Source: Micromonospora tarapacensis (GTDB lineage Bacteria > Actinomycetota > Actinomycetes > Mycobacteriales > Micromonosporaceae). From it: DNA of 64,000 bases. Location: positions 186,001 through 250,000 of the forward strand of contig NZ_JAHCDI010000004.1 of assembly GCF_019697375.1 (NCBI RefSeq), given 5' to 3'. The translations under genes and the position numbers were made by a program. The notes under the pieces were generated by a model. That model was not told where the DNA came from. It saw only the letters and a list, made by a program, of their open reading frames with translations, and ran no database searches. Position 1 is the stretch's first letter. The number at the start of each line of letters is the position of its first letter. This document shows positions 50,055 to 64,000 of this stretch, one piece after another.

Positions 50055-53000
50055 ATGCGTGAGGATTCGCCGCGCTGGGAGCAGATCAACGCCAGTTCCC
50101 ACGTCCACGAGCAGGACGGGCTGCGCGAGCTGGCCAGCTACCTGCCGGATGCCGATCCGTACCACGTCTGGGCGAACGTCGAGTTCGTGGGTACCGACGG
50201 CTCGATCAACGAGGTCGACGCCCTGGTGCTCACCCCCAGCGGCCTCTGCGTGCTGGAACTCAAGCACTGGCAGGGTGACATCCGCGGTGACGGTACGCAG
50301 TGGGTGCGGCGGGTCGGCAACCACCGGCTCACCCCGGAGGACAACCCGTACATCCTGGCGAACCGCAAGGCCAAGCGGCTGGCCAGCCTGATCCGCTACT
50401 ACGCTCGGCAACAGGGCCGCGAGTCCCAGGCGCCCTACATCGGCGCGGCCGTGTTCCTGCACGCACCGAACATGAGCGCCCGAGGTCTGGACGCCATCGG
50501 CAGGCAGCACGTCTACGGACTCGAAGGGCACGACCGCGGGGTGCCCGGGCTCAAGCAGCTCCTGCTTGCGCCGCCGCGCAACCCGGCGCACCGGGTCGAC
50601 GGGCTCCGTGGCCGGCAGATCGTCGAGCTGGTCCGGGGCGCCAAGATCCGGCCGTCGGTGGCGGACCGAAAGGTCGGTCAGCTGCTGCTGCATCCGAAGC
50701 CGTTCGCCGAGGGGCTCGGCTGGCAGGACTTCCTCGGCGGGCACGTCATGAACACCTCGCTGGTGCGGCGGGTCCGCTTCTACCTGACCAGCCGGGCCGC
50801 CGAGCACGAGGTGCCGGCGATCCGTAAGGCGGCCGAGCGGGAGTTCCGCCTGCTCCAGGGCATCCACCACCCCGGGGTGGCGCGGGCCCATGACCTGGTC
50901 GAGCATGCCTGGGGGCCGGCGGTCGTCTTCGAACACCAGCAGGACTGGGTGCGCTTCGACCAGTGGCTGCTGCAACGCGGGAACTCCTTGACGCTCGCCC
51001 AGCGGCTGCAACTGGTGCAGGACCTGGCCGAGATCATCGACTACGCGCACTCCCGCCGGCTGGCCCACCGGGCTCTCTCACCCCGGGCGATCTACGTCGG
51101 CGGCGCGGATGGTCCACGCCCCACGTTGGTGGTGACCGACTGGCAGACCGGTGGCCGGTTGAAGGGCACGACCGAATTGACCCGGCTCGGGCCGTCGAGC
51201 GACCCGGCCAGCCTGGAGATGTTCTTCGACGACGAGGTCCGCTGCTACCAGGCACCGGAGGCGGAGAATGCCGCCAGGCTGCCCGGGCACCAGCTGGACG
51301 TGTTCTCGGTCGGTGCGACGGCGTACCGGATCCTCGCCGGCACGGCACCGGCGGCGAGCCCGGAGGAACTGGTCGGCGCGGTCCGGGACAGCGGCCTGCA
51401 TCTGGACGCCGTCGTCGACGGAATGCCGCACTCGCTGGTGACGCTGGTCTACGACGCGACCCGCGGCGACCCGGCGCAGCGGCTGCGCAGCGTCGCGGCG
51501 ATCCGCGACGGCCTGGAGAAGGTGTGGGAGGAGCTGACCGCCCCGGAGCCCGAGCCGGTGACCGATCCGCTCTCGGCGCATCGGGGCGACATCCTGGACG
51601 GTGGCCTGGAGGTCAAGGACCGGCTCGGCGCCGGCGCCACCGCCGTGGCCCTGCTGGTGCGTCGCCCGGAGGACTCCGACGACCTGGTGCTGAAGGTCGC
51701 CCGCGACGAGCAGCACGAGGAACGGCTGACCGCGGAGGCGGGTACCCTCGCGGGTTTGAAACACCCCCAGGTGGCCGCGTTGGTCGACGGCCCGGTGCGG
51801 GTCGGTGGCCGGACCGCCCTGCTGCTGGAGAGCGCCGGGCGGCAGACCCTCGCCGAGGAGCTGCGTGGCGGCCGGCTCGCGCTGGACCTGCTGGAGCGGT
51901 ACGGACGGGACCTGCTCGACATCGTCAACTACCTCGACGGCCAGGGTGTCTGGCACCGTGACCTGAAACCGGCGAACCTGGCCGCCCGACCCCGGCCGAA
52001 GGACAAGCAGCCGCACCTGTGCGTCTTCGACTTCTCGCTGGCCGCCACGCCCGCCGATCGGATCAACGCGGGTACGGTCGGCTACCTGGATCCGTTCCTG
52101 GGCCCGCCGCGGCGGCTGCGCTACGACGCGGCGGCGGAACGCTTCGCCGCAGCCGTGGTGCTCTACGAGATGGCGACGGGCACGCTGCCCCGGTGGGGCG
52201 ACAACGCCAACCCGGTCACGATCCGCGACGAGGTGGCCCTGGAAGCCGCGGCGTTCGACGCCGCCGCGGCGGACCGGCTGGTGGAGTTCTTCCGTCGGGC
52301 GCTGGCCCGCGACGCCGCGGCTCGCTTCGACACCGTCGACGAGATGACCGACGCCTGGCGGGCCATCTTCAAACAGATCCCGAAGGCGGCACCGGGCGGC
52401 CCGGCCGCGCCGGGGCTGCCCCGGAGTCACCGCTGGCCGCCGCGGAGCTGACCGACCGTGCCCGGTCGGCGCTGGAGCGGCTCGGCCTGGTCACCGTCGG
52501 GGATCTGCTGGACGCGGAACCGTCGGTGCTGACCCGGGCCAGGGGGGTGCCCGACGCCACCCGCAAGGAAATCCTCGCCAAGGCGCGAGCACTGCGCCCG
52601 GTGGTGCCGGCCGGCACCGAGCCCGCCACCACCGAGGACCGGCCGCTGGCGCAGGGGGTGGAGGCGCTCTGCGCCACCCTGCTGCCCGGACCCACGTCGC
52701 GCAACCATCGTTCGCTGGCCGTGCTGCTGGGACAGGCACCGACCGACGAGGGGACGTTCCTGCCCTGGCCGGCACAGACCGAGGTGGCCCGGACCATCGG
52801 GCGCGGCCAGCCGCAGATCTCCAGGATGCTGGCCGCACAGGCGAAGGTGTGGCTGGCAGAGCCGGCGCTGACGGCGGTCCGCAACGAGCTGGTCGCGTTG
52901 CTCGACCTCCGTGGCGGGGTGATGTCCGCCGAGGAACTGGCCCAGGCGTTGATGGCCGCGCGCGGCTCCTACACCGCCGGCCCGAAGCGGTTTCCGCAGG

Positions 53001-54208
53001 CGATCGGCCTGGTCCGCGCGGCCGTCGAGGCCGAGCTGAGCATGGGCGGTGACGCCCGGGTGGCGATTGCGCGCCTGCGGGCGACCGGGCTCGTCCTGGT
53101 CGGCCGGGAGCCCGACGATCCGGCGTCCGACGTCACCGCCGCCGACTTTCTTGAGTACGTGGTGACACTGGGCAACCGGGCGGCTGAGCTGACCGGCGCT
53201 GACGAGCCGCCTGACCGGCGCCACCGGGCCGGCGAACCGCTGCCGACCCGGCAACGGGCCGTCGAGGAACTGCGCCGGCTGCCCGTACCGGCGGGCATGC
53301 CGTCGGCGACCGACCCGCGGTTGCTGCAACTGGCGGCGATCGGCAGCAACGACCGGGTGGACGTCAACGCGCAGGGGCAGCTCTACCCGGTCGGCATGCC
53401 GGCGGAGGCGGCGCTACGGCTGTCCACGGGCACCCTCGTCGGCCAGCGGCTCAGCGATCGGCAGCTCCGTGACCGGGTGCAGAGCCGCTTCCCGCGTGCC
53501 GAGCAGCTCCCTGGCCGCCCGACGCTCACCAACCTGCTGGCCGCGGCGGAGGTGCCGCTGACCTGGCATGCACAGGATCGGGTCTACGGTCCGGTGAGTG
53601 TGCCGACATCGGTCACCGGCACCCGTACCGTGACCGGCCATGCCCCGTTGCTCACGCTCACCGCTGTCGACGAGGTGGGCGACCGGCTCGCCGCGGCGAT
53701 GAAACGGCACGCCTTCCTGGCGGTGCTGGCACCCTGGCGCCGGCTCGGCCCCGCCCGGCAGGCCCTGCTGACCAGGCTGTCGTTGGTCGAGGTGGACGTC
53801 ACGGCGATCCTGCTGGAACGGCTGCGGTCGTTGGGCTTTCCGTGGGAGGCGATCGTGGCGGCCGACAACGGTTCACCGCAGGACGCGGACTTCCGCAGCC
53901 TGGTCGATCTGGTCCGGCACCAGGTGATGCCGGCACTACGCGCCGCGATCACCGCCGCAGACGGTCCGGTGCTGATCACCGAGGCAGCGCCGCTGGCCCG
54001 GTACGGGCAGCTCGGGCTGTTCCAGGAGCTGGCCGATCCGACCCGGCCCCGACCGGCGGCCCGGCTGCTGCTGCTGCCGACCCGGCGCGCCGAGTCGGCG
54101 ACGCTCGACGGCGTGCAACTCCCGCTGACCTCCCCGACCAGCCAGACGCTCTACCTGGCGCAGGACTGGATCGCCGCGGCCGACGACGCCCGCCCGCGGG
54201 TCGGTTGA
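50055..54208 (+). CDS. pglW: PglW-like NERD/tandem-kinase protein of a BREX type 2 (Pgl) locus, apparent -1 frameshift
   Basis: About 1384 residues if one base is restored. N-terminal NERD nuclease-like domain (~10-150; DALVLTPSGLCVLELKHW). First kinase-like domain (~230-500) is a pseudokinase: HRALSP replaces HRD-LKP and DWQ replaces DFG. Second kinase domain (~515-790) keeps HRDLKPAN (~633) and ends KPAN...DFSLA, so it should be active. A ~590-residue C-terminal region with a helix-hairpin-helix-like start (LERLGLVTVGDLLDAEPSVL) lies in another frame. The frames join if GGGG at 52412-52415 has one more G. The ATG follows GGAGGAG. PglW kinases are part of the phage growth limitation system of Streptomyces. 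The frameshift may be an undercall, a mutation or phase variation. Confidence 0.85.
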
Positions 54209-54323
54209 TCAATGGGCGTTCCGGCACGTGTGGTGCCGGTGGGACAGCCGGTGCGGCGCGAGCGGATCGTGAGCGGCTACTGTGTCCCGCGGACCGGACG
54301 TCGAGTCGGCGGGAGGAACGGAC

Positions 54324-57300
54324 GTGGCGAAGCTCGCGCTGACGCCGGCCGAGGCGGCACTCTACGACCTCGTCGGTCCCCGGGTTTTCCTGCGAGCCCG
54401 CCGGCACCTCGACGACGGGGAACTGGTCGACGTGCAGTGGGACGCGACGGCCGGCCGTGGGCGTGCCCGGCTCGCCGGCAGCGATCCGGGCCTGGTGGTC
54501 GCCGCGACGACGACCGTCGACGGAGCCATCGCGACGGCGGACGGCTCGTGCAGCTGCGGGCAGGCCGGCTGCGCCCACCCGACGGCACTGGTCCTGGCGA
54601 CGCTGCCGACGACCGCGGCACCCGCGCCGCGCCCGGCACCCCGCACGATGGGCTGGGAGAAGGCCCTCAGCAAGCTGGTCCGCGACGTCACCGTGCCACG
54701 GCCGGCCGCCGCGCCCGAGCAGGCGGGTCTCGGGTTGCAGTTCGACGTCGTGCCGGCCACACCGGGCACCGACGGTTTCCGCGTCGCCCTGCGCCCGGTG
54801 GTGCCGGGCCGCACCGGTTGGGTCCGGACCGGGATCAGCTGGTCCAGCTTGAGCTACGCCAACGTCGGCAGGTCCAAGCAGATCGAGCGGCAGCGCCGGC
54901 TGCTCGGCGAGATCGTGCGGTTGGCCACCGCGGGCCACGACCCGTACGGCTACTACTACGGCGGCCAGCGGCAGAACGTCTTCCTGGACGAGTTCGAGAC
55001 CCGCCGGATCTGGGACCTGCTGGCCGAGGCCGACGAGGCCGGTCTGCCGTTCGTGCAGACCGGCAAGCACGTGGCTCCGGTCGTGGTCGGCCGCAACCCG
55101 GCCCGGCTGTCGGTCCGGGTCGACCGGGCCGACGGGGAGTTGCTGCTGGAGCCCGCACTGGCGGCCGACGGCACCCTGATCCGGGCGGCGCAGCTGGCCC
55201 TGATCGGCGACCCGGCGCACGGCATCGCCTGGTTGCGGGATCCAGCCGCGGGCGAGGCCCGGCCGGCCAAGCCGGCACTGTGGCTGGCGCCGCTGGCCGG
55301 GACGATGTCGCCGCCGATCCTGCGGGCGTTGTCCGGCCCGGCGATCCGGATCCCGGCAGCGGACGAGGAGCGCTTCTTCGACCAGTTCTATCCGGAGCTG
55401 CTGCGGCAGGTGCAGGTGCACGCGGCCGATCCGGCGGTCCGCCTGCCGGCGGTCGGCCCGGTCACGTTGGTGGTGACGATGACGCCCGAGCCCGGTCAGC
55501 GCCTCGCGCTGCGCTGGGAGTGGCATCGCCCCGTTGGTGGCCGGCGCCACCCCGAACCGCTGCGAGCGCTGCCCAACGGGGTCGACGACCGGCGGGCGGA
55601 GGTGCTCCGCCGGGTCGTCGAACTGGTCGCCAAACCCGTACCGGAGCTGCTGGAGCCGTCACCGGTCGGGCCTTCGCTGGCCGAGTCGGCCACCGTCGGC
55701 GGTGACGCCCTGGTCCGCCTGCTCGGCGACGTGGTGCCGCGGCTCGCCGAGATGGATGACGTCGAGGTGGTCACCCCGTCGGGCGGGGAGCTGCCCGACT
55801 ACCAGGAGACGTACGAGGCGCCGACGATCACGTTCGCGGGCGGCGATGCCGGTGAGCACGACTGGTTCGACCTGTCGGTGCAGGTCAGCGTCGGCGGCGA
55901 GGCGGTCGGCTTCGCCGAGCTGTTCGCCGCGCTCGCGCAGGACCAGCAGTACCTCATCCTGCCCAGCGGCAGCTACTTCGCCCTGGACCGCCCCGAGTTC
56001 GGCCAGCTCCGGGAGCTGATCGCCGAGTCACGGGCGCTCGCCGACGCCCCGCCCGGGACGCTGCGGGTCGGCCGGTTCCAGGCCGGGCTCTGGGACGAGC
56101 TGGCAGACCTGGGTGAGATCACCGGCCAGGCCGCCGGCTGGCAACGGTCGGTGCGCGCGCTCAGCGAGGCGGACCCGGCCGCCGACCAGCCGGTCCCACC
56201 GGAGGTACGGGCGCAGCTGCGCCCGTACCAGCAGGATGGCTTCCGGTGGCTCGCGACCCTGCACGGCCACGGCCTCGGCGGCGTCCTCGCCGACGACATG
56301 GGGCTCGGCAAGACGTTGCAGACGTTGGCGTTGATCTGCCACGCCCGCGCCGACCGACCGTTCCTGGTGGTGTGCCCGGCCAGCGTCGTGGACAACTGGG
56401 CGCGGGAGGCCGCCCGCTTCACCCCCGAACTGGATGTCCGGACCATCACCCAGACGGCGGCGCGGCGCGGTGCCGGGCTGGCCGATGCGGTGGGCGGGGC
56501 CGAGGTCGTCGTCACCTCGTACACCCTGTTCCGGCTGGAGTACGACGACTACCGCGCGCACGACTGGGCCGGCCTGATCCTGGACGAGGCGCAGTTCGTC
56601 AAGAACTCCCAGTCCCAGGCACACCGGTGCGCGAAGCTGCTGCCGGCGCCGTTCAAGCTGGCGATCACCGGCACCCCGATGGAGAACAACCTCGGCGAAC
56701 TGTGGGCGCTGTGCTCGATCACGGCACCCGGGCTGCTGCCGCGTGCCGACCGGTTCACCGAGTACTACCGCAAGCCGATCGAGAAGGACCGCGACACGGA
56801 ACGGCTCGCGCAGCTGCGCCGCCGGATCCGGCCGCTGATGCTGCGCCGCCGCAAGGCGGACGTGGCCGCCGACCTGCCACCCAAGCAGGAGCAGATCCTT
56901 GAGATCGAGTTGGACCGCAAGCATCGGCGGGTCTACCAGGCATACCTGCAACGGGAGCGGCAGAAGGTGCTCGGCCTGCTCGGTGACCTGGAGAAGAACC
57001 GGTTCGAGATCTTCCGGTCGCTGACCCTGCTGCGGCAGGCGAGCCTCGACGTCACGCTGGTCGATTCGGCGCAGCACGCCGTGCCGTCGACCAAGCTGGA
57101 CGTGCTCACCGAGCGGGTCGCCGACCTGGTCGCCGAGGGCCACCGCAGCCTGGTGTTCAGCCAGTTCACCCGGTTCCTGGGCCAGGCCCGGCAACGCCTG
57201 ACCGCGGCCGGCATCGGATGCAGCTATCTGGACGGCACCACCCGCGACCGGGCCGCCGTGATCGACGAGTTCAAGCGTGGCACCAACCCGGTCTTCCTGA

Positions 57301-57590
57301 TCAGCCTCAAGGCCGGCGGGTTCGGCCTCAACCTCACCGAGGCCGACTACTGCCTGCTGCTCGACCCGTGGTGGAACCCGGCCGCCGAGAACCAGGCCGT
57401 CGACCGGGTGCACCGCATCGGCCAGACCCGCAACGTCATGGTGTACCGGCTGGTTGCCAAGGACACCATCGAGGAGAAGGTGATGGCCCTCAAGGCGCGC
57501 AAGGCGGAGCTGTTCGACAGCGTCCTCGACGGCGGCGAGTTCGCCTCCGCCCAGCTCACCGCCGGCGACATCCGGAGCCTGCTGGAGTAG
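54324..57590 (+). CDS. SWIM zinc-finger SNF2-type helicase
   Basis: A 1088-residue helicase/translocase. The SWIM finger CSCGQAGCAH lies at ~75-84. A ~500-residue middle region follows. The SNF2 ATPase core begins with LRPYQQDGFRWLATLHGHGL, Walker A DDMGLGKTLQTL (~655) and the motif II LILDEAQFVKN (~752). Motif III reads ITGTPMENNLGELWAL, and motif VI lies in NPAAENQAVDRVHRIGQTR. Start GTG 54324 is chosen because GGGAGG lies eight bases upstream; GTG 54282 is possible. It is encoded 115 bases after the PglW-like gene on the same strand. It likely moves along DNA or remodels protein-DNA complexes as part of the defence island. Confidence 0.92.
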   Translation: MAKLALTPAEAALYDLVGPRVFLRARRHLDDGELVDVQWDATAGRGRARLAGSDPGLVVAATTTVDGAIATADGSCSCGQAGCAHPTALVLATLPTTAAPAPRPAPRTMGWEKALSKLVRDVTVPRPAAAPEQAGLGLQFDVVPATPGTDGFRVALRPVVPGRTGWVRTGISWSSLSYANVGRSKQIERQRRLLGEIVRLATAGHDPYGYYYGGQRQNVFLDEFETRRIWDLLAEADEAGLPFVQTGKHVAPVVVGRNPARLSVRVDRADGELLLEPALAADGTLIRAAQLALIGDPAHGIAWLRDPAAGEARPAKPALWLAPLAGTMSPPILRALSGPAIRIPAADEERFFDQFYPELLRQVQVHAADPAVRLPAVGPVTLVVTMTPEPGQRLALRWEWHRPVGGRRHPEPLRALPNGVDDRRAEVLRRVVELVAKPVPELLEPSPVGPSLAESATVGGDALVRLLGDVVPRLAEMDDVEVVTPSGGELPDYQETYEAPTITFAGGDAGEHDWFDLSVQVSVGGEAVGFAELFAALAQDQQYLILPSGSYFALDRPEFGQLRELIAESRALADAPPGTLRVGRFQAGLWDELADLGEITGQAAGWQRSVRALSEADPAADQPVPPEVRAQLRPYQQDGFRWLATLHGHGLGGVLADDMGLGKTLQTLALICHARADRPFLVVCPASVVDNWAREAARFTPELDVRTITQTAARRGAGLADAVGGAEVVVTSYTLFRLEYDDYRAHDWAGLILDEAQFVKNSQSQAHRCAKLLPAPFKLAITGTPMENNLGELWALCSITAPGLLPRADRFTEYYRKPIEKDRDTERLAQLRRRIRPLMLRRRKADVAADLPPKQEQILEIELDRKHRRVYQAYLQRERQKVLGLLGDLEKNRFEIFRSLTLLRQASLDVTLVDSAQHAVPSTKLDVLTERVADLVAEGHRSLVFSQFTRFLGQARQRLTAAGIGCSYLDGTTRDRAAVIDEFKRGTNPVFLISLKAGGFGLNLTEADYCLLLDPWWNPAAENQAVDRVHRIGQTRNVMVYRLVAKDTIEEKVMALKARKAELFDSVLDGGEFASAQLTAGDIRSLLE

Positions 57591-57682
57591 GCGCAGACTC
57601 CGCTCCAGCAAGGAGTGGCCGGCGACGATCGGTCCGTCCGGCGTGGCCAACCGCAGGGCACCGGAGCCGTCACGGATTGTGG

Positions 57683-57688
57683 TAGGAA
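57683..57688 (+). promoter_or_regulatory. -10-like element (TAGGAA) of a leaderless transcript
   Basis: TAGGAA is followed by seven bases and the ATG of the DUF3696 ATPase gene. It fits a leaderless start imperfectly (final base A rather than T). No properly spaced Shine-Dalgarno sequence is present. Confidence 0.4.
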
Positions 57689-57695
57689 TCTAGGA

Positions 57696-58949
57696 ATGCC
57701 GCTGCGCAGGATCGTGTTGGAGAATTACCGCTGCTTCCGGGACCGGCAGGAGATCGAGCTGGCCCCGGTGACCGTGGTGCTCGGCAAGAACAACTCCGGC
57801 AAGAGCGTGCTGACCCGCGCCCCACTGGTCATCGCCACCGGCTTCGACACCACCAGCACCGCACCGCTCGACCTGGACCGGCTGCATCCGTTGCCGGTGG
57901 ACGGTTTCCCCGACCTGATCTTCGAGCAGAGCACCCACGGCCGCTTCACGCTGGGCGTGGAGGTCGAGGGTCGGGGTGCCTTCGCGATGGAGGCGAGCAT
58001 CCGCTACGTCGACGAGGACCGCTCGGCGTACGTCTCCGGTCTTCGCGTCACGGCCGAGGGTGAGTCCGTCGAGTACCGGTTGCAGCCGACCATCGAGGTG
58101 ACCGCCAAGGGACTGATCTACGACATCCAGCGTGGCCAGGACTCGACCACCAAGCCGGTCACCTTCGCGGGACTGCTGCCACACTATTTCGAGTTTCAGC
58201 GCTACTGGCCGGGAAAGCGCCCATGGCTGCCGTCCCTGGGGCCGATCCGTTTCCTCAGTGCCTACCGCGACCGTCCGGAGCGACAGCACCGGCTGCCGTT
58301 CGGGACGGCACGCGAGGTGGGGGAGCAGGGCCAGGGGGTGTACGGCATCCTCGCCGACGACCGGGCCCGGCGCAGCGGAGAGCTGATCGAGCGGGTCAAC
58401 GTGCTGCTCGCCCACATCGTGCCCGACTGGCGGATCGAGGAGATCCCGGCCGGCCCACTGTGGTCGACGGTGCTCACCCGTCGGGGCAGCCAGGTGCGGG
58501 TGAATCTCGCCGACGCCGGCACTGGCCTGGCGCAGGTGCTGCCGATCCTGGTGCAGTGCGCTCTCGACGAACTGCGTGGCGGCACCGTCAAGCCGTTGCA
58601 GATCGTCGAGGAACCGGAGATGCACCTGCATCCCGGAGCCCATGCCGCGCTGGCGGATCTCTATCTCGACACCGCACGCGAGACCGGCACCCGATTTCTG
58701 ATCGAAACCCACAGCGAAACCTTGTTGTTGCGGCTGCGACGCCGCATCGCGGAAGGCGCATGTCAGCCCGACACCGTGGCGGTCTACGTGGTGGAGCAGA
58801 AGGACGGTGTGTCGACCGTGCAGCGGGTGTCAATCGACGAGCTGGGCAATCTCGGTGTCGGCTGGCCGGACGGGTACTTCTCCCAGGACTACGAGGAGGC
58901 ACGGGCGTTGGCGACCGCGCAGATGAGCCGGAGCGGCTATGGATCTTGA
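57696..58949 (+). CDS. DUF3696-type AAA ATPase (OLD/AriA-like)
   Basis: A 417-residue ABC/SMC-like AAA ATPase. Walker A is GKNNSGKS (30-37) after LENYRCFRDRQEIELAPVTV. The signature-like region ADAGTGLAQVLPILVQCA precedes Walker B QIVEEPEMHLHP (~300-312), then LIETHSETLLLRLRRRI (~335-350). The tail WPDGYFSQDYEEARAL is the DUF3696 hallmark. The same ATPase fold is used in OLD-family nucleases, Gabija GajA and PARIS AriA. Unlike OLD or GajA, no TOPRIM domain is fused; the next gene, overlapping by 11 bases, supplies a TOPRIM-like protein. Upstream ORF extension was rejected because the conserved N-terminus starts at 57696. Confidence 0.9.
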   Translation: MPLRRIVLENYRCFRDRQEIELAPVTVVLGKNNSGKSVLTRAPLVIATGFDTTSTAPLDLDRLHPLPVDGFPDLIFEQSTHGRFTLGVEVEGRGAFAMEASIRYVDEDRSAYVSGLRVTAEGESVEYRLQPTIEVTAKGLIYDIQRGQDSTTKPVTFAGLLPHYFEFQRYWPGKRPWLPSLGPIRFLSAYRDRPERQHRLPFGTAREVGEQGQGVYGILADDRARRSGELIERVNVLLAHIVPDWRIEEIPAGPLWSTVLTRRGSQVRVNLADAGTGLAQVLPILVQCALDELRGGTVKPLQIVEEPEMHLHPGAHAALADLYLDTARETGTRFLIETHSETLLLRLRRRIAEGACQPDTVAVYVVEQKDGVSTVQRVSIDELGNLGVGWPDGYFSQDYEEARALATAQMSRSGYGS

Positions 58950-59778
58950 TATCAAGCCCGAGGTGTTCATCCAGGGCGACAAGATTGCCGTGGTCAAGCT
59001 ACTCGAACTGCTCATGCACGAGCGGCACGAGTGGCGACCGGACAAGACCACCGCCGACAGTGCCGCCCGCTTCGCCGACACCCTGCCGTTCGACGGGGTC
59101 AAGGTGTTCGTCGAGGAAGCCTTCATCAGAGCCACGAGCACGGTGTCCGCTCCACAGGGGCGGCGGGCACCGATCACCGCCGCCGAGCTGAAGGATCTGG
59201 TGGCGGATCTGAGCCGGCCGGCGGTGCTGGTGGTCGAGGACGAGATCTCCGAGGAGTGTTTCCTGCTCGCGCTCGCCGAGGCGTTCAACGAGAAGCGCAT
59301 CGTGCAGGCCATCCGTGCGGATTGGCTGACCGTCGGGCACGCGGGCGGCAAGGACCGGATGCCACTGTTCGTCGAGCGTCGCCGTCGGCAGTTCGCCATC
59401 CTGGTACGGCTGGCGGCGCTGATGGACAGCGACCGCAAATATGCCGGGCACCGGACTCGTAACGACACCTACGCCGCGAAGATCCGGGCCATCGATGGTG
59501 TCGAGCTGCACCTGTGGGGCTGCCGGGAGATGGAGAACTACATACCCTGCCGGGCGTGGGAGGAGAGCCTGCCGACGCGGATGCCCAAGGTGGACGCCCT
59601 GCGCGGCAAAAGCGCCGAGGAGCGGCGCTATCTCGACGTCAAGGAGCACTTCGGCGCCATGCCTCGGCCGCTGATCGCCGAGCACACCTGCCTGACGGAG
59701 GAGGACTTCGCCGAGTTGGGGCCGGAGGTCGTGGCGGAGCTGCGCAGGTTGCTCGCGATGATCCACCGGATCCTGTAG
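58939..59778 (+). CDS. TOPRIM-like partner of the DUF3696 ATPase
   Basis: A 279-residue protein with landmarks of a TOPRIM/OLD-type nuclease in the right order. These are VVEDE (98-102) for the first acidic site, GGK (136-138), the Asp pair in LMDSDR (161-166), and REMENYIP (196-203), which recalls the (E/D)xENY segment of DUF4435/AriB-like and OLD proteins. About 90 residues precede the TOPRIM-like core. The start overlaps the ATPase stop by 11 bases, so the proteins are made together and probably form one complex. I do not recognise the exact family; metal-dependent nuclease activity is inferred from the acidic residues. Confidence 0.65.
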   Translation: MDLDIKPEVFIQGDKIAVVKLLELLMHERHEWRPDKTTADSAARFADTLPFDGVKVFVEEAFIRATSTVSAPQGRRAPITAAELKDLVADLSRPAVLVVEDEISEECFLLALAEAFNEKRIVQAIRADWLTVGHAGGKDRMPLFVERRRRQFAILVRLAALMDSDRKYAGHRTRNDTYAAKIRAIDGVELHLWGCREMENYIPCRAWEESLPTRMPKVDALRGKSAEERRYLDVKEHFGAMPRPLIAEHTCLTEEDFAELGPEVVAELRRLLAMIHRIL

Positions 59779-59790
59779 GAGACTGGGGCC

Positions 59791-61512
59791 ATGCGCACCG
59801 ACCAGGCCGAGATCCGGCCCGACCCGACCATCGCGCTCGTCGATGATCTGCTGGGCGGCATCGGTCGGGGTGAGATCCGGGTGCCGGCGTTCCAGCGGCC
59901 CTTCGTCTGGCGACCCCACCAGATGCTGGAGCTGTTCGACAGCATCGAGCGCGGCTACCCGATCGGCAGCCTGCTGCTCTGGCAGACCGACGAGCGGGTG
60001 CCCTCGCTGGACGAGATCGGCGGCCTGGCGGTGCCGCCGCCACCGGACGGCCGCCAGGTCTCCTATCTGCTCGACGGGCACCAGCGGGTGTCCACACTGT
60101 TCGGGGTGCTGAACCGGCCGCTGCGCGACGGCCCGGCCGAGGGCGAGGGAGACTGGATCTGGCAGATCTACCGCGACCTGCGCCCCGACCCGCTCGGCTC
60201 GGACCGCTACCGGCACCACCGTTCCGGCAGGTTCTCCCCGCACCTGCTGCCACTGGCCGCGGTGATGCGCACCCGGGACTTCCTCCGGCACTTCCACCGG
60301 GTGGAGCTGACGGTCAAGGATCCCGCCCAGGCGGATGCGCTGATCCGGGAGGCCGAGGCGGTCGCGCAGCGGATCAAGGGCTACAAGCTGACCATGGTCA
60401 GGCTCCAGGGGGCCAGCATCGACCAGGCGGTCAACGTGTACGCCCGGCTCAACCGCACCGGCACCCGGATGGACCCGGACCAGATGGTCTCCGCGCTGAC
60501 CTACCGCAAGGAGCAGCCGTCCCTGGCGAGCCGGATCGACGACATCGTGACCGCCATCGCCGACACCGGCTTCGGTGAGCTGCCCCGGCTGGCGGTGTTC
60601 CGCTCGTTGCTGGCCATCGCCGGGGAGACCGACATCATGTCGCCCCGCTGGAGCCTGGTCGCCGACTACGTGCAGAACCGCCTGCACGACGCCCTGCCGC
60701 AGACCGACCGCGCGGTACGCCTCGCCGCCCAGTTCCTGCGCACCGGCGTGAACCTGCCGCAGGCGAAGTTCCTTCCGTACTCACACCAGCTCGTGCTGCT
60801 GGCGATGTTCTTCCACGTCTGCCCGGAGCCGAGCGGCCGGCAGTACGACCGGCTGCGCCGCTGGTTCTGGGTGACCTCCTGGTCGAGCGCGTTCGCCGGA
60901 GCGACCTCCACCGTGCTACGCAAGGCGCTGGCGGAGATGCGCACCTTCGCCAGCGGCGCGGGTGACCTCGACCCGGACGTCGGCGACGTCCGGCCGATGC
61001 CCGAGTCGTTCAACCTCAACAGCGCCCGCACCAAGGCGTACGTGGCCTGGGAGACGCTGGAGTTTCCCCGCCGGCTCGACATGCTGGGCCAGCCGTTCGA
61101 CGTGGTGAAGGTGCTGGAGGCCGCGGACAGCCAGATCTTCCGGCACGTCGTGCCGAAGGACAGTCGCCCCGCCAACCGGCTGATCTTCCCCACCACGCCG
61201 AACACGGGCGTGCTGGCCGCGCTCAAGGGGCTCAGCCCGCCCCGAGGTCCGGGCCTGTTCGACGGCAACCCGGAGCTGAGTGGCCTGGTGGGCCGCTCGG
61301 TCACCGAGCAGATCCTGGACAGCCACGGCATCCCGATCAAGGCGTGGCGGCGGCTCTGCGAGGGCGGCAACGGCAACCAGATCTTCGTCGACGACCGGAC
61401 CGACTTCCTGGCGGAACGGATCCGGGCCTTCGCCGACCATCTCGACGTGCCGATCTCCGGCCGCCTCGACGTGCCGCTCGCCGGGAGCATGGCCGACGAC
61501 GACTGGGAGTAG
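59791..61512 (+). CDS. DUF262 (GmrS/SspE-like N-terminal) protein
   Basis: A 573-residue protein. The ParB/Srx-like DUF262 domain (~10-230) starts with RVPAFQRPFVWRPHQMLELF and DSIERGYPIGSLLLW, and contains LLDGHQRVSTLFGVL (~92-106). Most family members have DGQQR at this nucleotide-binding site; here it is DGHQR. The C-terminal ~340 residues are helical with no HNH (DUF1524) motif recognised, unlike GmrSD. DUF262 proteins hydrolyse NTPs and sense modified DNA in GmrSD, SspE and BrxU-type defences. The ATG lies nine bases after AGGAG and 13 after the TOPRIM-like gene stop. Confidence 0.88.
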   Translation: MRTDQAEIRPDPTIALVDDLLGGIGRGEIRVPAFQRPFVWRPHQMLELFDSIERGYPIGSLLLWQTDERVPSLDEIGGLAVPPPPDGRQVSYLLDGHQRVSTLFGVLNRPLRDGPAEGEGDWIWQIYRDLRPDPLGSDRYRHHRSGRFSPHLLPLAAVMRTRDFLRHFHRVELTVKDPAQADALIREAEAVAQRIKGYKLTMVRLQGASIDQAVNVYARLNRTGTRMDPDQMVSALTYRKEQPSLASRIDDIVTAIADTGFGELPRLAVFRSLLAIAGETDIMSPRWSLVADYVQNRLHDALPQTDRAVRLAAQFLRTGVNLPQAKFLPYSHQLVLLAMFFHVCPEPSGRQYDRLRRWFWVTSWSSAFAGATSTVLRKALAEMRTFASGAGDLDPDVGDVRPMPESFNLNSARTKAYVAWETLEFPRRLDMLGQPFDVVKVLEAADSQIFRHVVPKDSRPANRLIFPTTPNTGVLAALKGLSPPRGPGLFDGNPELSGLVGRSVTEQILDSHGIPIKAWRRLCEGGNGNQIFVDDRTDFLAERIRAFADHLDVPISGRLDVPLAGSMADDDWE

Positions 61513-61534
61513 TGGCCTGATGAGCGGCAGACCT

Positions 61535-61540
61535 TAGGAT
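61535..61540 (+). promoter_or_regulatory. -10 element (TAGGAT) of a leaderless pglX transcript
   Basis: TAGGAT, six bases and then GTG 61547 match the actinomycete leaderless promoter pattern exactly. There is no Shine-Dalgarno sequence. It suggests pglX can be transcribed separately from the upstream genes. Confidence 0.6.
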
Positions 61541-61546
61541 CTAGCG

Positions 61547-64000
61547 GTGATCGAGCTGAAGGCGTTGCAGGCGCAGGTCAAGACCCTGGTGGAGGATCTG
61601 CGCGGGCAGGTCGCGCAGACGCCGGGCCTGCGCGCCGAGCTGCGCCAGGAGTGGGCTGCGGCGCAGGCCGCCGAGCGGGTCGGTGCCAGCTTCGAGACCT
61701 GGCTGGAGGACATCCTCGACCAGGCGGCGGTGGCTTGGGTGCTCGGCTGCGTCTTCGTCCGCTTCTGCGAGGACAACCAGCTCGTCGACGGGCTGTGGAT
61801 CGGCGGCGCCGACCCGGCCGCGCCGGCCGAGCAGGCGGTGCAGCGCCGGCAGGCGTACCTGATCGCCAACCCCCGCCACAACGACCGGCACTGGCTGCGC
61901 GAAGCCTTCGGCTACCTGGCCGAGCTGCGCGCCACCGGCAAGATCTTCGACCGGCACAACCCGGTCTGGCGCTTCGCCATCTCCGGCCCCGCCGCCGAGG
62001 ATCTCAGCGACTTCTTCCGCCGCGGCGCCGCCGCCGCGACGCTGCGCCGCGACGACCTGAACACCCGCTTCCTTGGCGACCTCTACCAGGACCTCTCCGC
62101 CCACGCCAAGAAGACGTACGCCCTGTTGCAGACCCCCGAGTTCGTCGAGGAATTCATCCTCGACCGCACCTTCGAGCCGGCAGTCAAGGAATTCGGCCTG
62201 CCCGCCACCAGCGTCATCGACCCGACCTGCGGCTCCGGCCACTTCCTGCTCGGCGCCTTCCACCGGCTGTTCGACAAGTGGCGCGACCGCGAGCCGGCCA
62301 CCGACCCCCGGGTGTTGGCGGAGCGGGCACTCGGCCAGGTCACCGGCGTCGACATCAACCCCTTCGCGGTGGCCATCGCCCGCTTCCGGCTGCTCATCGC
62401 CGCCATGAAAGCCTGCCAACTGACCACCCTGGAACGCACCCCCGCCTTCCCCGTCCGGGTAGCCACCGGCGACTCCCTGCTCCCCTGGGGCGCATTCAGC
62501 TCCCGCGCCCAGGGCGACCTGCTCGCCGAGCTGGAAGGCAAGGAAATCTTCGCGTACGAGAGCGAAGACGCCGACCTGCTCAAGGACTACCTGGCCGAGA
62601 ACCAGTATTCAGTGGTGGTCGGCAACCCGCCCTACATCACGGTCTCCGACAGCGCCCGCAACAAGCTCTACCGAGGGCTCTACGAAACCTGCTCCGGCAA
62701 GTACGCCCTCACCGTGCCCTTCGCGGAACGCTTCTTCGCGCTGGCCAAGCGTGGCGACCACGACGGAGATGGTGCCGGCCACGTCGGTCAGATCACCGGC
62801 AACGCCTTCATGAAGCGCGAGTTCGGCAAGAAACTGATCAACGAATACTTTGCGAACAGCGTGGAGTTGGCCGAGGTGATCGACACCTCCGGTGCTTATA
62901 TCCCTGGCCACGGCACTCCGACCGTGCTCTTGATCGGCCGTAACCGTTTCGTGAGTTCGCGCTATAGCGGCACGATTCGGACCGTGCTTGGTGTCCGCGG
63001 AGAACCATCCACCCCTGACGACCCCTCAGAAGGCAAGGTCTGGCTCGCGATCAAGGCGCAGGTAGATGCACCGGATTCTGAATCCGGATGGGTTAGTGTT
63101 GCCGACTTCGCTCGCGTTCAACTTGCCTCTCACCCATGGAGCCTCAGTGGTGGCGGCGCGCCCGGATTAATGGATGCGATTCAGGGACAAGTCGAAGCCA
63201 GAATCCGTGACCAAGCATCCATGATGGGGTTCGTCGCCATCACCGCAGAGGATGATGCATTTTTCTTGACTAAATCAGCAACTCGACGCCTGGGTGTTGA
63301 GACCACCAGGCCAATGGTTACCGGCGACGTCGTCCGCGACTTTAGAATTGCCGCCGATATTGCCGCGATTTTCCCCTACGAGGGCGATCTCGACGTGGCT
63401 GTGCCAGCCAAACTTCCGCAGATCATGAAGGTGCTGTGGCCAAACCGGCGGGTTCTTCAACGCCGCAAGCGGTTTGGTGTGCTAATCGAAGACATTCCTT
63501 CTCTGCGATGGTATGAGTTCGGTGAGCTTTACCGGGAGAAGTTGCAGACGCCGCTGTCGATTGCGTTTGCGTTTGTGGCTACGCATAACCATTTTGTGTT
63601 GGATCGGGGTGGGAAGGTCTTCAAGCAGTCGGCACCGGTGATCAAGTTGCCGGAGGGGGCGTCGGAGGACGATCACCTGCGGCTGCTCGGGGTGCTGAAC
63701 AGCTCGACCGCCTGCTTCTGGCTCAAGCAGGTCAGCCAGAGCAAGGCAGGTAGCGGGATCGGTCGGGGCATCCAGCCTGAGGCTTGGATGGATCGGTGGG
63801 AGTTCACCGGTACCAAGCTTGAAGAGTTTCCGTTGCCTTCGGCGTACCCGCTTGGGCGGGCGCGGGAGTTGGATGGGCTGGCGCAGCGGCTCGGTAGCTT
63901 GACTCCGGCGGCGGTGGCCGCGTCGGGGGTGCCGAGTCGGCAGCGGCTTGCGGAGGCTGAGGCGGAGTACCACTCGGTGCGGGCGCGGATGATCGCGGTG
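61547..64000 (+). CDS. pglX: PglX-like adenine-specific DNA methyltransferase (3' end outside the window)
   Basis: The frame stays open from GTG 61547 to the last base (818 codons), so the protein is incomplete; PglX proteins are about 1200 residues. The N-terminus (IELKALQAQVKTLVEDLRGQ and VAWVLGCVFVRFCEDNQLV) and NTRFLGDLYQDLSAHAKKTY, LLQTPEFVEEFILD are the PglX type of BREX-2. SAM-binding motif I is DPTCGSGHFLLGAFH (~225) and the catalytic motif IV is NPPY (~360), with GVDINPFAVAIARFRLL between. It modifies host DNA at adenine or, in classical Pgl, marks phage DNA. Third-position GC falls after about 62950 (e.g. 63000-63640), then recovers, which hints at recombined specificity sequence. 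Confidence 0.92.
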   Translation, partial: MIELKALQAQVKTLVEDLRGQVAQTPGLRAELRQEWAAAQAAERVGASFETWLEDILDQAAVAWVLGCVFVRFCEDNQLVDGLWIGGADPAAPAEQAVQRRQAYLIANPRHNDRHWLREAFGYLAELRATGKIFDRHNPVWRFAISGPAAEDLSDFFRRGAAAATLRRDDLNTRFLGDLYQDLSAHAKKTYALLQTPEFVEEFILDRTFEPAVKEFGLPATSVIDPTCGSGHFLLGAFHRLFDKWRDREPATDPRVLAERALGQVTGVDINPFAVAIARFRLLIAAMKACQLTTLERTPAFPVRVATGDSLLPWGAFSSRAQGDLLAELEGKEIFAYESEDADLLKDYLAENQYSVVVGNPPYITVSDSARNKLYRGLYETCSGKYALTVPFAERFFALAKRGDHDGDGAGHVGQITGNAFMKREFGKKLINEYFANSVELAEVIDTSGAYIPGHGTPTVLLIGRNRFVSSRYSGTIRTVLGVRGEPSTPDDPSEGKVWLAIKAQVDAPDSESGWVSVADFARVQLASHPWSLSGGGAPGLMDAIQGQVEARIRDQASMMGFVAITAEDDAFFLTKSATRRLGVETTRPMVTGDVVRDFRIAADIAAIFPYEGDLDVAVPAKLPQIMKVLWPNRRVLQRRKRFGVLIEDIPSLRWYEFGELYREKLQTPLSIAFAFVATHNHFVLDRGGKVFKQSAPVIKLPEGASEDDHLRLLGVLNSSTACFWLKQVSQSKAGSGIGRGIQPEAWMDRWEFTGTKLEEFPLPSAYPLGRARELDGLAQRLGSLTPAAVAASGVPSRQRLAEAEAEYHSVRARMIAV

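Follow-up and report, generated by a model that had tools for sequence, protein, structure and literature searches.

The 64,000-nucleotide stretch of DNA from the soil actinomycete Micromonospora tarapacensis considered here (positions 186,001 to 250,000 of contig NZ_JAHCDI010000004.1, our G000:C4:186001-250000, called the window below) ends within a type 2 bacteriophage exclusion (BREX, or Pgl) locus, and a trio of genes matching the defence candidate PDC-M55 lies between its pglW and pglX genes. We lean towards reading the region as a type 2 BREX locus that holds PDC-M55, a self-contained candidate defence cassette, in a pglW-pglX cargo slot together with an unrelated SNF2 passenger gene, the cassette working as a type IV-like sensor that hands cleavage to an ATPase-TOPRIM pair resembling OLD and the phage anti-restriction-induced system (PARIS). 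The genome measures 6.9 Mb in 4 contigs, and Micromonospora was the source of the closest named protein relatives.

Identity of the PDC-M55 trio

Gene families were assigned by matches to PADLOC-DB 2.0.0 and Pfam profiles, from which the gene content could be read directly (Table 1). Six genes follow one another on the forward strand from position 50055: pglW comes first and pglX last, and between them lie genes for a SWIM/SNF2 helicase, an ATPase, a small protein that matched no Pfam family and a DUF262 protein, in that order. These matches bear out an earlier note, made from the letters of the window, which had proposed a Pgl/BREX-2 locus with extra genes between pglW and pglX. The PADLOC check that the note had suggested identified the ATPase, small and DUF262 genes as the catalogued candidate PDC-M55, in the same gene order, with A and C matched over almost all of their length and B best over residues 1-241. 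The trio is a member of this family, and nothing distinguishes it at the family level. PDC stands for phage defence candidate, as given in a passage of PMC11514479; according to a passage of PMC12988326, which cites 10.1101/2024.01.29.577857, such candidates were identified via 'guilt by embedding', and most of those discussed await validation. Literature searches on PDC-M55 returned no paper and no described mechanism or test, and a search on DUF262 together with DUF3696 likewise returned no paper.

Alignments of relatives allowed the residues expected of each protein to be examined directly. In M55A, whose start is likely the ATG at 57696 judging from the protein start common to relatives, the Walker A Lys63 was present in 65 of 66 sequences and the Walker B Glu332 in all 66. 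For M55B, the predicted fold matched the TOPRIM domains of OLD and GajA, and the TOPRIM Glu and DxD residues were kept in 69/69 rows (L037, for which a wrong frame had been picked, was left out). This suggests that M55B is an OLD-type TOPRIM nuclease with its acidic residues intact. Other searches with M55B were negative: the best E-value against sequences of solved structures was 0.15, Pfam found no family common to more than 2 of 23 relatives, and Foldseek alone with the M55B model gave nothing useful.

M55C keeps the DGxQR motif and the FDS serine of GmrSD enzymes. Within the NTPase motif D-G-H-Q-R, Gln98 and Arg99 were found in 71 of 72 rows, a count biased by the scan pattern, and Ser51 of the FDS motif in 70 of 72. 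At the position to which the DHIYP motif maps, none of the 71 rows that have letters there showed the nuclease Asp-His pair, nor was a [DE]H[IVLMF]xP motif present after residue 350 in any of the 72 rows, two of which are short. The region corresponding to the DUF1524 HNH nuclease still aligns by fold with BrxU. These data suggest that M55C is a full-length BrxU/GmrSD relative that has its NTPase residues and lacks the nuclease Asp-His pair.

Occurrence of the trio in and outside other defence loci

A scan of contigs from 84,980 species with the M55C alignment yielded 77 loci. In 71 of these the DUF262 gene directly follows an ATPase relative; among the six others, four (L064, L065, L095, L098) offered too little upstream DNA, and L058 and L066 did have flanking DNA. 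An open reading frame (ORF) was picked between A and C in 69 of the 71 (the pick in L037 was spurious, and none was picked in L041 and L046). BREX-2 genes were found within the fetched DNA of 12 loci, in several arrangements that could be observed directly. Seven (L022-L027, L063) share the window's arrangement; in L050 and L056 the trio follows brxHI; in L054 and L059 it lies on the opposite strand between pglX and pglW, as in a further genome, G038 (L099/L100); and L058 carries the DUF262 gene alone, between brxD and pglW. Three loci have a DISARM setting: in Thermomonospora (L031:2411-20964) the trio is flanked by drmB-drmA and drmMI, and in two Actinomadura loci (L035, L053) the same two large gene clusters stand beside it. 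In the remaining 62 of 77 loci neither the BREX-2 genes of the window, by any clear match, nor a DISARM-cluster gene was found, in a search that did not cover other BREX types systematically and on loci that are often short; single matches of 50-59 bits in L039, L082 and L083 were taken as generic kinase or helicase and were not counted as BREX. The trio is thus seen without BREX, and is a self-contained cassette found in several phyla.

Possible defence neighbours among the 62 loci were an MkoA-like gene (L029, 1.7e-54), a mads_8-like gene (L028, 3.1e-19), restriction-type genes (L057) and a partial BrxL (L030, 4.1e-13). Besides the trio and BREX genes, the most widespread neighbour cluster occurred in 9 loci of several genera, with an N-terminus that we take to be XRE-type regulator-like. 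The next three clusters each occurred in 5-7 Streptomyces loci, and all others in at most 4 loci. In seven Streptomyces loci (L043, L045, L047-L049, L051, L067) the trio has the same gene families in its vicinity, suggestive of a chromosomal hotspot; one of these families presumably has a thioredoxin-domain-like N-terminus.

A search of a phage collection gave one distant record, and a plasmid collection gave 18, of which the two inspected (L151, L152) hold a lone DUF262 gene. M55C relatives with no ATPase or TOPRIM neighbours seen thus comprise L058, in a BREX-2 locus, and L151 and L152, on plasmids typed conjugative. The lone plasmid genes therefore count against an obligatory trio.

In a tree of 72 M55C proteins, the eight co-oriented BREX rows formed one clade (100/100) and the opposite-strand rows (L054, L058, L059, L100) a second (100/99). 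L050 and L056 fell apart from both, the DISARM rows elsewhere again, and stand-alone rows in between. Because of this placement and the differing positions and strands, we take the trio to have entered BREX-2 three or more times and DISARM at least once; the tree is also compatible with movement in the opposite direction, out of BREX.

The trees further point to exchange within the cassette. In those for M55A and M55B the window grouped with L023 and L025 (M55A of L024 and L025 being read by tblastn interval), and in the M55C tree with L023, L022 and L024 (94/96, not starred). The C grouping was rejected by the B data (p-AU 2.1e-12) and the A data (2.2e-5), and the A/B grouping by the C data (0.013). 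The groupings were chosen after the identity values had been seen, which weakens these p values. Within BREX slots, the A-B pair appears to recombine as a unit against the C sensor, as expected if A and B form a complex.

One rival explanation takes the trio as a toxin-antitoxin-like relative of PARIS, triggered by a phage anti-restriction protein, with M55C an adaptor that neither reads DNA nor hydrolyses nucleoside triphosphate (NTP). The ATPase does match AriA (2.8e-20) and has a TOPRIM partner gene, and inhibitors of BREX and DISARM, next to which the trio is found, would act as the trigger. However, M55C retains the FDS serine and DGxQR motif, and 62 of the 77 loci showed neither a BREX-2 nor a DISARM gene in the vicinity. 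We consider this explanation unlikely.

The pglW-pglX cargo slot and the surrounding locus

The slot was surveyed in 201 relatives at a threshold of E<=1e-60, by which PglW was found in 49 and PglX in 39. Both lay on one contig in 38 genomes; G027, with the two genes on different contigs, was excluded from the gap count. The pglW and pglX matches lay within 75 bases of each other in 14 of the 38. G174 was rejected as an occupied slot, its apparent gap being the unmatched C-terminal part of pglW with no cargo. The remaining 23 genomes have 2.2-12.1 kb between the genes. Eight of these slots hold the trio, seven co-oriented (G000, G020, G035, G080, G083, G114, G118) and one on the opposite strand (G038); G162 was excluded from the count for its weak partial match (2.6e-5). 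The gap is where the trio sits in each of the 8 relatives that have it in full; the arithmetic chance of 8.5e-7 ignores shared descent and so is no probability. The earlier note had named two findings that would refute it: extra genes absent from all other PglW-PglX loci, or separate known systems inserted by chance. The extra genes proved neither absent from other such loci nor placed at random, and the trio is indeed a catalogued candidate system. Given its position in all eight, it is therefore a catalogued candidate repeatedly embedded in BREX.

Other cargo also occurs. The G020 slot additionally holds a DDE transposase gene, and that of G064 an RmrA-like gene. In place of the trio, G088 has a prolyl oligopeptidase (S9) gene, by Pfam, and G014 a gene of the same cluster with a UvrD-like helicase gene (L126:668-2521; L127:10436-11737). 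In another BREX-2 clade the G067 slot holds a Shedu-like SduA_C gene (L114:4900-6072), with same-cluster genes in G024 and G004 (L117, L118). A pglX tree of 22 rows (G035, the same genome as L025, being left out) united the trio loci and the two peptidase-cluster loci in one clade (100/99), apart from 8 sampled cargo-free loci. Because the peptidase-cluster loci nest among the trio loci, this tree indicates that cargo is exchanged on a common BREX background.

The regular position of the trio could also mean that it belongs to BREX as a fixed component of a separate BREX-2 subtype, and is a backup effector only, which senses failure of BREX (for example inhibition of PglX or PglZ) and not phage DNA. 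In addition to the 8/8 placement, before shared descent is considered, such a role would fit the co-orientation of seven of the eight, the 34-base gap between M55C and pglX in the window, and the backup role that a passage of PMC12839542 proposes for OLD-ABC/TOPRIM pairs in BREX. We nevertheless regard it as improbable: the 62 loci have no clear BREX-2 match or DISARM cluster, the trio also occurs in DISARM, and within the trio-holding BREX clade G088 and G014 carry the peptidase-cluster genes and other cargo instead.

The SNF2 gene was examined in the same slots. Its best PADLOC model was DpdE (4.3e-212); since the ZorD and DrmD SNF2 models match too, assignment as a Dpd component by best name was rejected. 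SNF2 models in general cross-match widely. Of the 7-deazaguanine insertion genes expected beside a Dpd component, no DpdA-named match was present among the matches listed for scanned genes, a set that does not include every neighbour. Matches at E<=1e-150 occurred in 36 of 201 genomes (three candidates scored per genome). Orthologues 77-82% identical lie on contigs other than that of pglW in G059 and G082, and about 730 kb from pglW in G061. In-slot copies were restricted to the window, G083 and G118 among the relatives, that is, to 3 of 9 known co-oriented slots (window, L027 and L106). In G083 the match runs across two frames and another contig carries a second copy; in G118 a single frame covers only residues 257-1102. 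With its close orthologues located outside BREX in other genomes and the two further in-slot copies apparently defective, the SNF2 gene is probably a passenger of the slot, unrelated to the trio.

The earlier note had suggested that the genes from pglW to pglX, with SNF2 among them, could be a single composite defence system, and had called for a search for the same six-gene order. That order was indeed found in three genomes, the window, L027 (=G083) and L106 (=G118). Six further co-oriented slots (L022-L026, L063), however, lack SNF2, and the broken in-slot copies and the orthologues elsewhere in G059, G061 and G082 also speak against it, so that we judge a six-gene system very improbable. 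The proposed logic of sensing (DUF262, ATPase) plus killing (TOPRIM) remains plausible for the trio; the idea of one composite BREX variant is not supported, given a trio with no clear BREX-2 match or DISARM-cluster gene around it in 62 of 77 loci, its three or more arrangements in BREX-2, and SNF2 in just 3 of 9 slots. A new BREX subtype was rejected on account of the trios found without BREX and the probable passenger status of SNF2.

Downstream DNA (L005) was examined to C4:285999. As the earlier note had expected of pglY and pglZ, both lie beyond the window, with brxD and brxHI, after approximately 10.9 kb of other genes 3′ of pglX. The type 2 BREX core is complete, with pglW, pglX, pglY (brxC), pglZ, brxD and brxHI each PADLOC-matched in one locus. 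Not all core genes are intact, as pglW is spread over two frames. Its N-terminal half contains a NERD nuclease domain and two kinase-like stretches (Pfam NERD, Pkinase, PK_Tyr_Ser-Thr), and its ORF ends at a frame break at window positions 52379-52451, where five aligned relatives are one base longer near 52.42 kb; the frame is uninterrupted in many relatives. The split could be an assembly error or real gene decay. BREX function in this strain is uncertain because of this break, and the cassette may be the working part if BREX is inactive.

Beyond approximately residue 1190 of its 1331, the pglY frame (C-terminal tail at L005:19500-19948) matches nothing in relatives, and this tail overlaps an ORF running into pglZ. 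It is a possible second frame break, from assembly error or decay. The interval from pglX to pglY (L005:5068-15813) contains a helicase-C-like gene, an HTH/DUF5753 regulator, a gene with an AbiEi-type and a weak REase_MTES_1575 match, and unknown genes; since its length varies in relatives too, it may be a second cargo slot. A sigma-70 promoter scan found no promoter.

Table 1. Features of the pglW-pglX region in window coordinates (aa, amino acids)
Feature	Position	Strand	Basis
pglW, N-terminal half	50055..52451	+	PADLOC PglW PDLC02512, E=0, profile 2-779/1403
pglW, C-terminal half, different frame	52439..54208	+	PADLOC PglW 6.2e-128, profile 809-1396/1403
SWIM/SNF2 helicase, 1102 aa	54282..57590	+	Pfam SNF2-rel_dom 1.5e-61, Helicase_C; SWIM-type zinc motif by eye
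PDC-M55A, OLD-type ABC ATPase with DUF3696	57615..58949	+	PADLOC 2.9e-180; Pfam AAA_15, AAA_21, DUF3696
PDC-M55B, predicted OLD-type TOPRIM nuclease (by fold), 279 aa	58939..59778	+	PADLOC 1.2e-91
PDC-M55C, DUF262 protein	59791..61512	+	PADLOC 4.3e-247; Pfam GmrSD_N 3e-22
pglX methyltransferase, 1167 aa	61547..64000, ending at L005 position 5051 beyond the window	+	PADLOC PDLC02529, E=0, profile 8-1175/1189

Proposed mechanism and relation to known systems

For the cassette we propose the following sequence of events, in which sensing cue, substrate and relay are inferred from BrxU and PARIS. M55C, of the GmrSD family, would read a cue in foreign DNA, by analogy with BrxU modified phage DNA, and bind or hydrolyse NTP. 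It would no longer be able to cut, because its nuclease Asp-His pair is gone. The signal would pass to the OLD-type ATPase M55A, which may keep the TOPRIM protein M55B bound in a complex, in the way AriB is held by AriA in PARIS, and activated M55B would then cut nucleic acid and so stop the infection. Within BREX, the cassette would form a second layer of defence, against phages that evade BREX with an inhibitor or with modified DNA, a part played by BrxU alongside type 1 BREX. BrxU and BREX act complementarily against different phages (PMC8565348), which would be a reason to keep such a cassette beside BREX.

A more specific proposal, which we put forward tentatively, is that PDC-M55 is a split form of type IV restriction. 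A GmrSD/BrxU sensor without a nuclease centre would delegate cutting to the PARIS/OLD-like pair, the cassette would nest in BREX-2 and DISARM, and the exchange of A-B as a block relative to the sensor would make the coupling modular. A database candidate for which no described mechanism was found would thereby gain a testable hypothesis, that a GmrSD sensor with a dead nuclease controls, in trans, a TOPRIM nuclease. Nested defence systems are a subject of current interest, and this locus offers a natural experiment on them: one and the same cassette can be compared on its own, in no fewer than three arrangements within BREX-2 and within DISARM, and in one BREX lineage other cargo has replaced it.

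Compared with type 2 BREX (Pgl), the locus has all six core genes and differs in the cargo between pglW and pglX, the long pglX-pglY interval and the split pglW. M55C shares with the BrxU/GmrSD type IV enzymes the DUF262 domain with its NTPase motif; unlike them it lacks the DHIYP Asp-His pair, and the ATPase-TOPRIM pair is encoded by separate genes. OLD-ABC/TOPRIM pairs embedded in BREX loci as auxiliary effectors are described in parts of PMC12839542, and the trio likewise places such a pair inside a BREX locus. In the available text of that paper, however, the term DUF262 has 0 occurrences, and the GmrSD and OLD-ABC modules are treated separately.

PARIS (AriA-AriB) similarly combines an OLD-type ABC ATPase with a separate TOPRIM gene. 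The trio differs from it in that its ATPase is best matched by the M55A model (598 bits) and not by AriA (72 bits), and in usually having a DUF262 gene as its third member. Menshen, whose components we take to be those that PADLOC names NsnA, NsnB and NsnC, also pairs a DUF262 protein with an ATPase: NsnB matched M55A nearly full length (5.1e-42) and NsnA matched M55C (2.1e-6). Membership of Menshen was rejected on the third gene, with no NsnC match in 23 M55B relatives (E<=1) and an hhalign probability of 0.1 against one NsnC-like protein. No NsnC match at E<=1e-20 was present in the window's genome, and a literature search on the Nsn names found nothing relevant. Since one Menshen component is reported, in a passage of the review PMC10952713, to carry an OLD-type TOPRIM domain, Menshen and PDC-M55 may nonetheless have a common working logic.
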